Source of the DNA: a virus
Direction: 5' to 3' (one strand)
Virus record (IMG/VR): IMGVR_UViG_3300042125_000010
Span: 1 to 41,171 of that record
Length of the DNA: 41,171 bases
A program made the translations under genes and the position numbers. How positions within the stretch are numbered: position 1 is the first letter of the stretch; the number at the start of each line of letters is the position of its first letter. Positions 18,416 through 24,860 of the stretch are shown here, in pieces. A model generated the notes under the pieces. That model was not told the origin of the DNA. It did not search any database and saw only the letters and a program-made list of their open reading frames with translations.

Positions 18416-18619
18416 TCACGCTCCCGTATGTTCGTTCTTGTCGGTGATTCGGTTGATCGCTTTTGCTGTTTCAGCCACCGATATCATGATGTCGATGGAG
18501 TCCTGCGATAAGTGCCCCCGCATGATCGCCTTGAGCGTCGAGCGGGGGGTGATGCGCAGTGGGGACACAATGGACCCCACCACGTAACGCCACAGCTGTG
18601 CTGGCAGGTGCTCATCCAC
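18416..18619 (-). CDS. Small hypothetical protein with GTG start
   Basis: 67 residues from GTG 18619, chosen because AAGGAAG lies 7 bases upstream and because the GTG overlaps the stop of the 34-residue gene (GTGGATGA). The ATG starts at 18682 and 18652 have no ribosome site. The protein is helical with a moderately hydrophobic N-terminal part (LWRYVVGSIVSPL) and a regular helix SVAETAKAINRIT. Function unknown. Confidence 0.6.
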   Translation of the reverse strand: MDEHLPAQLWRYVVGSIVSPLRITPRSTLKAIMRGHLSQDSIDIMISVAETAKAINRITDKNEHTGA

Positions 18620-18716
18620 GGCTGTTCTTCCTTGCTGGCCTCGCCAGCTCATGTAACACAACCAGCACAATCCACAGGGCAAGCAGTGCCTGGATCAGCC
18701 TATATTGACGGCTCAT
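18612..18716 (-). CDS. 34-residue single-TM micropeptide
   Basis: ATG 18716 to TGA 18612. The peptide has a short basic N-terminus (MSRQYRLIQ), one hydrophobic helix (ALLALWIVLVVLHEL) and a basic C-terminus (ARPARKNSRG), the pattern of a membrane micropeptide with its C-terminus in the cytoplasm or periplasm. It overlaps the gene upstream by 17 bases and the GTG gene downstream by 8. Its own ribosome site is weak, so it is probably translated by coupling. Confidence 0.55.
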   Translation of the reverse strand: MSRQYRLIQALLALWIVLVVLHELARPARKNSRG

Positions 18717-20063: not shown

Positions 20064-20290
20064 GTCGCTTTCCTCTTGCGCTGTGAGCTGGTGCGCTCGG
20101 CCGTGCGGTACTGCATAGAGCAGCTTACGATGAACGCTTCTACGGCTGCACGGTTGGTCATGCCACTGGGGCGGTGCAGGGTGTTGACGGACGCTACGGT
20201 ACTGCGGCCACTGAAGCAGCTGACGACGTATGCGTAGCCAGAGTCAATCGGTGTACAGGACCATTCCAGCTTAGCCTTAGTGCAGGACAT
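20051..20290 (-). CDS. Small hypothetical protein, Ser/Cys-rich
   Basis: 79 residues from ATG 20290 (GAGGG at a spacing of 8). Four Cys (two near the N-terminus, CTKAKLEWSC, and CF and SCS later) and a basic C-terminus (ERTSSQRKRK). It overlaps its neighbours by 13 to 14 bases. Function unknown. Confidence 0.58.
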   Translation of the reverse strand: MSCTKAKLEWSCTPIDSGYAYVVSCFSGRSTVASVNTLHRPSGMTNRAAVEAFIVSCSMQYRTAERTSSQRKRKATWTA

Positions 20291-20492
20291 GGGGTTCGCC
20301 CTCGGTGGTTACACTCATCGTCGCCTGGCCAGCACGCCAGCCCCACCAGGCGCTGTTCATGCAGCCGGTCAGGGCCTGGTTCTCGAACAGGTACAGGTCG
20401 TCATCCTTGCGGTGCTCCTTGACGTACCAGTGCAGCGCTTCATCGCCGATTTCCTTGAGGTAGGCGATTTCAAAAAGGTCACGGTTGCTCAT
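20277..20492 (-). CDS. Small hypothetical protein
   Basis: 71 residues from ATG 20492; GAGGG lies 8 bases upstream, while the ATG at 20498 is too close to that site. The N-terminal half is an acidic helix (RDLFEIAYLKEIGDEALHWYVKEHRKDDD), followed by NSAWWGWRAGQA. Similar small proteins with a W-W-G-W-xA motif occur in many phages as uncharacterised proteins. Confidence 0.62.
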   Translation of the reverse strand: MSNRDLFEIAYLKEIGDEALHWYVKEHRKDDDLYLFENQALTGCMNSAWWGWRAGQATMSVTTEGEPHVLH

Positions 20493-20507
20493 GATCATAC
20501 CCTCGAT

Positions 20508-20723
20508 TCAGACCAGTCGGTGCCCACGGCACCAGGCCAGGAACTCAGCGTCTGTCATCTCGGACAGCTGCTGTGCGGTGATGTCGTGTTGCTTGTGCGG
20601 GCTCTGCAGGTAGTCGTTGAGCCAGCCGGTAACGGTCATGATGCGCTCGCACGCGGTGATAGCCGTCAGCGTTTCGTCGATGACCTTGCCTCTGCGCTTG
20701 TTAAAGCTGGTCACTGTGCCCAT
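20508..20723 (-). CDS. Small basic helical protein
   Basis: 71 residues; the ATG at 20723 has the best ribosome site of the block (AGGAGG at a spacing of 4 to 5), much stronger than those of its neighbours. The N-terminus is basic (TSFNKRRGKVIDETL) and the C-terminus ends in CRGHRLV. Function unknown; the strong site predicts higher expression than the upstream micropeptides. Confidence 0.62.
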   Translation of the reverse strand: MGTVTSFNKRRGKVIDETLTAITACERIMTVTGWLNDYLQSPHKQHDITAQQLSEMTDAEFLAWCRGHRLV

Positions 20724-20731
20724 GACGCCTC

Positions 20732-20821
20732 CTAGAACCAAATGGAATAGAAAATGTATGTAATTACAACAAACGGGGCAAGCGCGATGGCCACTAGAAG
20801 GCCGAATGCTTCGTTGCTCAT
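20732..20821 (-). CDS. 29-residue membrane micropeptide
   Basis: ATG 20821 to TAG 20732, ATGA overlap with the micropeptide upstream, and GGAGAT at a spacing of about 7. After MSNEAFG almost the whole peptide is one hydrophobic helix (LLVAIALAPFVVITYIFYSIW). Third member of a run of three; no family known. Confidence 0.58.
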   Translation of the reverse strand: MSNEAFGLLVAIALAPFVVITYIFYSIWF

Positions 20822-20898
20822 GGGTAGATCTCCATTAGTATGGCCACCACGATGTAGCCTACACCCACCAGGGCGCCAATCAGGATGGACTCAATCAT
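20818..20898 (-). CDS. 26-residue membrane micropeptide
   Basis: ATG 20898 to TGA 20818, with ATGA overlaps at both ends. The peptide is MIES followed by one hydrophobic, Gly/Val/Ile-rich helix (LIGALVGVGYIVVAILM) and a short EIYP tail. Weak own ribosome site, so coupling is likely. Confidence 0.55.
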   Translation of the reverse strand: MIESILIGALVGVGYIVVAILMEIYP

Positions 20899-20993
20899 TT
20901 GCGCCACCAGGCCGTCGCCAGCTCGCGAAGGAACACGTACCCGGCACAGATCATTGCAGCCTGTGCCAGAAGGTCGAACTCATTTGCTGTCAT
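20895..20993 (-). CDS. 32-residue micropeptide
   Basis: ATG 20993 to TGA 20895. It overlaps the Cys-rich gene upstream by 14 bases and the next micropeptide by four (ATGA). One moderately hydrophobic helix (LLAQAAMICAGYVFLRELA) ends in an aromatic-basic tail (TAWWRK). First of the three-peptide run. Confidence 0.52.
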   Translation of the reverse strand: MTANEFDLLAQAAMICAGYVFLRELATAWWRK

Positions 20994-21228
20994 GGTCGAT
21001 ACCCCAAAAAGTCATCCAGTTGTTGTAGGCGTTCTCGGGGCTCATGCCCGAGGACATCAGGCCACCAGCACCGCATTCCATGGGTTTGTAGCACAGCCAC
21101 AGACCACAGTAGAGCGGGCCCTTGATGCGGATCTTGGCGGCGTACTCTGCGCGTCCCCTTACGCACATGCCACAGCCGCAGTTCATACGCAGGGCCCAGG
21201 AGCAGCGTGGGTCGCTTTTGGTCGTCAT
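20980..21228 (-). CDS. Cys-rich zinc-binding protein, possibly Lar-like
   Basis: 82 residues from ATG 21228, in a TGATG overlap with the upstream stop. Seven Cys lie in the first 55 residues (CSWALRMNCGCGMC, YCGLWLCYKPMECG), and the C-terminus has SPENAYNNWMTFWG, which resembles the E-A-x-x-x-W-N end of Lar restriction-alleviation proteins. The Cys spacing is not the usual CPFCG, so the match is partial. A zinc-binding small protein is well supported; an anti-restriction role is a guess. Confidence 0.6.
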   Translation of the reverse strand: MTTKSDPRCSWALRMNCGCGMCVRGRAEYAAKIRIKGPLYCGLWLCYKPMECGAGGLMSSGMSPENAYNNWMTFWGIDHDSK

Positions 21229-21410
21229 CACACACCATCCTGCACAGCGCGGGCCGTGCGTTCATTCTTGCGCTCGCCGCGCACGTAGCACTCAACACGG
21301 AAGCCCAACGGGCCACGCTTCACCAGGACCTTGACGCCTGTTTCCTTGTCTTCTGCCATCAGCTGGCCGCTGTTGCGGGCCAGTCGTAGCAGGTCGTTGA
21401 AAGTAGTCAT
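21228..21410 (-). CDS. Small basic protein
   Basis: 60 residues from ATG 21410 (GAGG at a spacing of 7; ATGA overlap upstream). N-terminal helix (TTFNDLLRLARNSGQLM), then a basic beta-like part (VKVLVKRGPLGFRVECYVRGERKNER). Function unknown. Confidence 0.62.
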   Translation of the reverse strand: MTTFNDLLRLARNSGQLMAEDKETGVKVLVKRGPLGFRVECYVRGERKNERTARAVQDGV

Positions 21411-22211: not shown

Positions 22212-22239
22212 ACTATAGTCGCTGGCCGGAGGCTGTCAA
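22212..22239 (-). promoter_or_regulatory. Sigma70-type promoter of the leftward block
   Basis: On the minus strand TTGACA (22239-22234) is followed after 16 bases by TATAGT (22217-22212). This is a perfect -35 and a 5 of 6 -10, in the 81-base gap upstream of the 22167 gene. It is the best promoter-like sequence I see in the window. Confidence 0.7.
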
Positions 22240-23904: not shown

Positions 23905-24140
23905 ACCTGAATAAATACGACGCCCAGGGTTTTCCGTACACAGCCGAAGAGGCTGCCGAGCGTGCCCATGCGATCTTCGCCCCGCGCTACCTGCATTACG
24001 GTTACAAGCGCGAAGTGTACCCGGCCGGCAACCCACCACTTTCGGGCCTACCTATTCCCGAAGCGACTGTCAAGCCCTACAATGTCGGGCGTAACGCAGC
24101 CAAACGCGCTGCCCGTCTTTCCCGAGGTGTCCGCAAATGA
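23901..24140 (+). CDS. Small basic protein
   Basis: 79 residues, ATGA overlap with the gene before and after. Tyr/Pro-rich middle and a strongly basic C-terminus (NAAKRAARLSRGVRK) that could bind nucleic acid. No family recognised. Confidence 0.62.
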   Translation: MNLNKYDAQGFPYTAEEAAERAHAIFAPRYLHYGYKREVYPAGNPPLSGLPIPEATVKPYNVGRNAAKRAARLSRGVRK

Positions 24141-24253
24141 CAGCCCTTCTCGCAAAACTCACTGGTATTTGGACCAACGCCACGACCCAGCAGAAAATGG
24201 TCCTGCTCGCCGTCGGCGCAGTCGTACTCGCCGGCCTGTGGACCCTGACGTGA
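24137..24253 (+). CDS. 38-residue membrane peptide, candidate holin component
   Basis: ATG 24137 to TGA 24253, ATGA overlap with the gene upstream. After TALLAKLTGIWTNATTQQK comes one hydrophobic helix (MVLLAVGAVVLAGLWTL). It lies two genes before the lysozyme, where phages keep their holins, but is shorter than known holins. Confidence 0.57.
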   Translation: MTALLAKLTGIWTNATTQQKMVLLAVGAVVLAGLWTLT

Positions 24254-24372
24254 TCGCAGCCATCACGACACTGGTGATGGCGGTCTGCGCTGTCATGGCG
24301 GTTGTGACTGTCATCACCATCGTGGCCATTGGTGTGTGCTGGTGGCACGACAAGCCTCCGGAGGACGAATGA
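24250..24372 (+). CDS. 40-residue membrane peptide, candidate holin or antiholin
   Basis: GTG 24250 to TGA 24372; the GTG overlaps the previous stop (GTGA) and the stop overlaps the lysozyme ATG (ATGA). A hydrophobic helix of about 25 residues (residues 5 to 30) is followed by a WWHDKPPEDE tail. The arrangement short TM peptide, short TM peptide, lysozyme, all translationally coupled, is the main evidence for a lysis role. Confidence 0.57.
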   Translation: MIAAITTLVMAVCAVMAVVTVITIVAIGVCWWHDKPPEDE

Positions 24373-24860
24373 ACAAGATGAGCATTTCCGCCGACGGGCT
24401 CGAGGTCGCGCACCACTACGAGTCATGCGTGCTGACGGCGTACCCGGATCCGGGCAGCAAGGACGGCAAGCCGTGGACGATCGGCTGGGGGCACACCGGT
24501 ACCGAAGTCGTAAGAGGGCTGGTATGGACCCAGGAGAAGGCGGACGCCGTCCTGAAGGTCGACATCGGTTCCTCTGAGCGTGATGTGCTGAGCCTGGTCA
24601 AGGTCAAGCTCACCCAGGGCCAGTTCGACGCCCTGGTGCTGTTCGTGATGAACGTAGGAGCGAATGCGTTCTTCAAGTCCACCATGCGCTACAAGATCAA
24701 CCAGGGCGACTTTGACGGCGCTTGCAAGGAATTCCCCCGCTGGAACAAGAACGATGGCAAGGTCATGAAGGGCCTGACCCGTCGTCGCGCCTCCGAGGCT
24801 GCGTTGTTCAACGGCGCCACCGGTCATGCGGCTATTGCTGTGGGAGCGAAAATCAAGTGA
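24369..24860 (+). CDS. Endolysin, T4-type lysozyme (GH24)
   Basis: 163 residues from ATG 24369 (ATGA overlap; the in-frame start at 24336 is inside the upstream gene). The catalytic Glu-Asp-Thr triad is visible: Glu18 in HHYES, Asp27 in AYPDPGS, Thr37 in WTIGWGHT. The Glu-Asp spacing is that of T4 lysozyme; a short insertion (GSKDGK) lies between Asp and Thr. There is no signal or SAR segment at the N-terminus, so it needs a holin to cross the membrane. It cuts the glycan strand of peptidoglycan. Confidence 0.93.
   Translation: MNKMSISADGLEVAHHYESCVLTAYPDPGSKDGKPWTIGWGHTGTEVVRGLVWTQEKADAVLKVDIGSSERDVLSLVKVKLTQGQFDALVLFVMNVGANAFFKSTMRYKINQGDFDGACKEFPRWNKNDGKVMKGLTRRRASEAALFNGATGHAAIAVGAKIK

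Follow-up and report, generated by a model that had tools for sequence, protein, structure and literature searches.

On the minus strand of an uncultivated virus record, positions 20993-20732 are tiled by three ATG-initiated frames of 32, 26 and 29 codons (p32, p26 and p29), which look like real but easily overlooked genes. On balance, we favour the reading that they encode early inner-membrane micropeptides that modulate the host and that are carried as separate accessory cassettes in the leftward replication operon of a tailed phage. Two new findings stand out most: the 26- and 29-codon frames show signs of selection, and their order is permuted in a related phage.

The virus record and its relatives

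The window, i.e. the whole stretch of DNA that was analysed, is a single IMG/VR virus record of 41171 bases without a close relative in GenBank. Genes for terminase, portal, capsid, DNA polymerase, primase and helicase were found in it, indicating a tailed phage, probably a podovirus-like one, and its portal shares 38% identity with the top GenBank match. The alignment of the window with a related record of 43.7 kb (L001) spans almost the entire genome and the ends are circularly permuted, so both records look complete. Identity between the two is 97% for the capsid, 92% for the terminase and 79% for the DNA polymerase.

L001 was the only relative carrying the trio region found by viral-contig and genome-contig scans of the collections searched, and the conservation of the trio reported here is that of this one pair. 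The queries of the viral-contig scan were the terminase, the DNA polymerase, the Cys-rich protein encoded upstream of p32 (alone and as an alignment), the upstream genes of 87 and 61 aa, a profile of p26 and a degenerate DNA pattern for the same gene. Another relative, L005, shares 88% capsid identity and the operon start with the window; despite this common start, none of p32, p26 and p29 was found in it, and it encodes a different 32-aa membrane peptide (METITLEDAFCVIGICIALWCILFVWRHGGPR) that is ATGA-joined to the next gene.

Three coupled frames in a leftward operon

A sequence-only reading of this DNA had described three overlapping frames filling the gap between the stop of the Cys-rich gene at 20980 and the gene at 20723, and this layout was indeed seen on the minus strand (Table 1). 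Each is an intact short ATG frame with coupling or a ribosome site. The ATGA overlaps described in that reading exist at the p32/p26 and p26/p29 junctions, where the next start lies within the preceding stop (4 nt), but not between the Cys-rich gene and p32, where p32 starts inside the upstream gene with an overlap of 14 nt (ATGACAGCAAATGA). The p29 ATG is preceded by GGAG 8 nt upstream, and p29 ends 8 nt ahead of the ATG at 20723, its TAG stop merging with the AGGAGG of the next gene. When the window was scanned for chained hydrophobic ATG micro-ORFs, the trio was recovered once on the minus strand and no triple on the plus strand, while 60 shuffles that approximately preserved dinucleotides gave a mean of 0.03 chained pairs and zero triples. 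The expectation that gene callers with a length limit miss these frames was also supported.

Table 1. Features of the window around the three micropeptide frames and in the same operon
Feature	Position	Strand	Description
Sigma-70-like promoter site	22212..22239	-	TTGACA-16-TATAGT; 11/12 matches; ahead of the first gene (22167)
Cys-rich gene	20980..21231	-	83 aa; upstream of p32 and translationally coupled to it
p32	20895..20993	-	32-aa micropeptide MTANEFDLLAQAAMICAGYVFLRELATAWWRK; borderline membrane helix, charged C-terminus
p26	20818..20898	-	26-aa single-helix micropeptide MIESILIGALVGVGYIVVAILMEIYP; contains GxxxGxG
p29	20732..20821	-	29-aa single-helix micropeptide MSNEAFGLLVAIALAPFVVITYIFYSIWF
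71-aa gene	20508..20723	-	immediately follows p29; ribosome site AGGAGG; strong codon-usage signal
73-aa gene	20277..20498	-	helical; AlphaFold pLDDT 71
Probable fourth TM micropeptide	18612..18716	-	34 aa, MSRQYRLIQALLALWIVLVVLHELARPARKNSRG; same operon; overlaps the stop of a 120-aa gene bearing a signal peptide

The trio lies within a leftward gene run leading into the replication genes. Going by the frames read in this run, p32, p26 and p29 would be genes six to eight counted from the promoter-like site, and a TATA element is present at the matching place in L001 and L005. Because of the promoter-like site and the operon position, early expression of the trio is likely, consistent with the earlier placement of the three frames in an early block. 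An antisense ORF (20754-21125, plus strand) was rejected, its best L001 match lying opposite the Cys-rich gene and none being found across the trio.

As for the neighbours, no homologue of the 71-aa gene was found in L001, the helical structure of the 73-aa gene gave no informative fold match, and the probable fourth TM micropeptide had no convincing sequence homologue in L001. The early operon of L001 also encodes a 211-aa protein (4596-3961, minus strand) that on visual inspection looks like a DNA sliding clamp and was not seen in the early block of the window.

Conservation of the frames as proteins

No match to the trio was found in the family, structure or RNA libraries searched, and the RNA element search at the trio gave no Rfam match. 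Likewise, p26, p29, the Cys-rich gene and the 73-aa gene had no match among GenBank phages, nor did p26 and p29 among PDB sequences. A weak match of RnfA to the L001 p26 (E 0.08) was taken as chance. A shared NE-F-LL start of p32 and p29 had a P of about 0.01, uncorrected for the 36 comparisons made, and paralogy of the two is not claimed.

L001 holds counterparts of all three peptides as intact frames. The stops or frameshifts in relatives that the sequence-only reading had named as evidence against its proposal were absent from L001, the sole relative with the region. The p26 homologue (L001 2863-2783) has the same length and 65% identity, and retains the GxxxGxG motif and the IYP end. Its dN of 0.36 and dS of 1.08 correspond to a dN/dS of about 0.34, and its identity was reached in only 2 of 10,000 random dealings of the same substitutions (P 0.0002), which argues for constraint on the protein. 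The p29 homologue (L001 2963-2874) is also equal in length, with 38-41% identity, a dN of 0.57, a dS of 1.23 and a dN/dS of about 0.46. Its identity alone was not significant against randomly dealt substitutions (P 0.11); an open frame, identity and hydrophobicity were jointly reached in 25 of 10,000 random trials (P 0.0025). The dN/dS of the two shifted same-strand frames was 1.0 to 1.9, above that of p26 and p29 in frame. For p32, the positional equivalent (L001 3376-3296, MSPNDLLELVTAIVCCAWILIAFVEG) is a 26-aa hydrophobic peptide overlapping the stop of the Cys-rich homologue, and the two share weak similarity at the N-terminus (anchored P about 0.001, global P 0.019). Conservation as protein was thus found in one relative, weakly for p32, and the intact frames together with the constraint on p26 and p29 bear out the initial view that the trio consists of genes rather than chance frames.

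It is quite improbable, in our estimate, that the frames arose by chance or that they serve as spacers or for translational coupling, with functionless peptides. The weak codon-usage signal of p32 and p29 would fit such an origin, p32 being neutral and p29 unlike the long genes of the genome (LLR -3.9), although none of the other five frames scores as well as its own; so would the 3' end of p26, which carries the Shine-Dalgarno-like stretch of the next gene in both phages. The protein-level constraint on p26, the joint retention of length, identity and hydrophobicity by p29, the failure of the shuffles ever to reproduce a triple, and the persistence of p26 and p29 in a different order in L001 all argue against it.

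Permuted order of the micropeptide genes

The order in the window is Cys-rich gene, p32, p26, p29, 71-aa gene and 73-aa gene, and that in L001 is Cys-rich gene, p32', a 104-aa lipoprotein gene, p29', p26' and 73-aa gene. The Cys-rich homologue in L001 (3603-3373) likewise overlaps a TM micropeptide (ATGA), and the 73-aa homologue directly follows p26 (detected in the L001 record at E 4e-56; the profile used includes that sequence). In both phages p26 ends in ATCTACCCATGAG, the next gene being p29 in the window and the 73-aa homologue in L001. Given the permuted order and the inserted lipoprotein gene, the peptides behave as separate cassettes; the permutation also suggests that each moves as a unit, with no need for them to act as one complex. 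The notion of the trio as one fixed set is accordingly weakened.

A shared junction, CTACCCATGAG(C/T), follows p26 in both phages (window 20775-20845, L001 2740-2810) with different downstream genes, suggesting that recombination may occur at ribosome-site/start-codon sequences. The gene inserted among the micropeptides of L001 (3291-2977, minus strand) is lipoprotein-like (MKTLLLAVGFSALAGCA); outer-membrane lipoproteins are a known type of exclusion protein.

Membrane-helix character and proposed role

The best 17-residue Kyte-Doolittle mean is 2.78 for p26 and 2.64 for p29, clearly indicating a single membrane-spanning helix in each. The claim that every peptide is essentially one hydrophobic helix therefore holds for these two, whereas p32 is borderline (1.68); the peptide at the matching position in L001, with a best mean of 2.5, is clearly hydrophobic. 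The conserved residues showed no clustering on one helix face (P 0.97 and 0.93), so no binding face can be named. The GxxxG of p26 is conserved in L001, but with 17 identical residues in all it is not unusual for three of them to be glycines, and the motif is only suggestive.

With two clear helices and one possible one, a position at the start of the replication operon and a separate lysis set in the genome, early action at the host inner membrane is the most likely role. We propose that the three genes share a transcript and are linked by translational coupling in the opening part of the leftward replication operon, and that the peptides, once translated, would enter the inner membrane of the host at an early stage of infection. 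There, each may bind or perturb either the membrane as such or one of the host's membrane proteins, conditioning the cell for host takeover or for the exclusion of competitors. The peptides would act as separate accessory cassettes rather than as an obligate three-part machine.

A more far-reaching form of this proposal, which we advance tentatively and regard as doubtful, is that p32, p26 and p29 represent three hitherto undescribed families of membrane micropeptides directed at the host, carried as cassettes interchangeable at start-codon/Shine-Dalgarno junctions and each with a different target, i.e. a kit for retuning host membrane complexes.

The lysis set bears on another explanation, namely that the peptides time lysis as small holins or antiholin-like peptides. 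Single-helix peptides of phages are often lysis-related, and two other TM micro-ORFs lie upstream of the endolysin gene at 24336. The trio, however, is encoded on the other strand from the endolysin gene, some 3.4 kb away and within the replication operon, and showed neither a holin family match nor a place in a lysis cassette. Moreover, the window encodes a family-matched holin (6545-6111, minus strand; phrog_3427, E 2e-25) and an endolysin (24336-24860; phrog_7), so lysis does not need the trio peptides, and we regard a lysis role as very unlikely. Just ahead of the endolysin (24137-24372, plus strand) are two short membrane frames, one of 38 aa at 24137-24253 and one ending at 24372, its stop overlapping an ATG at 24369. 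A similar pair precedes the endolysin in L005, and at least one such frame does so in L001. These are possibly extra lysis-cassette peptides, despite the family-matched holin elsewhere in the genome.

Superinfection exclusion, in which at least one peptide would stop the entry of other phages' DNA at the inner membrane, is rather unlikely as the specific role. It would agree with the membrane location predicted for the peptides and with their presumed early timing, and there are precedents in P22 SieA and in DicB, which acts via inner-membrane receptor proteins (PMC10883804, PMC6832061). The peptides also diverge faster (65/38% identity) than the capsid (97%), as in an arms race; yet soluble neighbours diverge equally (34-77% identity), so rapid change is not peptide-specific. 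Nor did the trio match by sequence any known family, including those of superinfection exclusion, toxins, holins and defence, and homology to an exclusion family was not found.

A further explanation, to which we give little credence, is that the peptides arrest growth by depolarising the membrane, much as YohP or type I toxin peptides do, lowering the proton motive force and shutting down host metabolism. Their size and composition resemble those of the 27-aa YohP, but p26 and p29 are without the helix-flanking basic residues present in YohP (PMC7549839). Neither an opposite-strand promoter-like site at 20732-20993 nor an Rfam match was found, giving no sign of an antisense antitoxin RNA as for Hok/TisB-like type I toxins, although plus-strand promoter-like sites and Rfam constitute a weak test. 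An early collapse of the membrane would presumably also harm the phage.

Our preferred reading remains that the peptides act early, at the inner membrane of the host. If translated, the three would be very small membrane proteins of a phage for which sequence comparison gives evidence of selection and which family libraries lack. Early phage use of tiny membrane peptides would point to host membrane complexes worth inhibiting, and the permuted order, in suggesting that micro-genes move as units, may aid in judging other frames of at most 30 codons.

Comparison with known systems

By analogy, the general kind to which the trio appears to belong is already known, early phage membrane micropeptides being a descriptive class exemplified by phage SPP1. 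SPP1 ORFs 46.1, 50.1, 51, 51.1 and 53 are, like the trio, tightly packed short ORFs with predicted TM segments and no known function, and an early role in the host membrane was inferred for the SPP1 early ORFs, as we propose here (PMC6316719). Among them, the consecutive ORFs 50.1, 51 and 51.1 are early and dispensable (PMC6316719). This is a likeness without a claim of sequence similarity: the SPP1 products have 51-133 aa and one to three TM segments and belong to a phage of Gram-positive bacteria, while the trio peptides have 26-32 aa, and dispensability is a finding on the SPP1 ORFs (PMC6316719).

YohP, at 27 aa, is also essentially one helix, and it dimerises via a helix glycine, as p26 with its three conserved glycines may recall (PMC7549839, PMC12719787); when it is produced, the proton motive force falls and the stringent response is induced (PMC12719787). 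It differs in being a host stress gene rather than a phage gene and in its lysine-flanked helix, and homology to the trio is not claimed. MgrB, a 47-aa inhibitor of the sensor kinase PhoQ, resembles the proposed role in being a small membrane peptide that binds a host membrane protein; it is chromosomal and longer than the trio peptides (PMC8404706), and homology is again not claimed. P22 SieA and DicB are small or membrane proteins that keep other phages from entering at the inner membrane, and differ from the trio in being expressed from prophages and in size (PMC10883804, PMC6832061). Over 2 million small phage genes have been reported, frequently with unknown function (review PMC11323111); compared with this general class, the trio is distinguished by its coupling and by the permuted order of its genes between two relatives.
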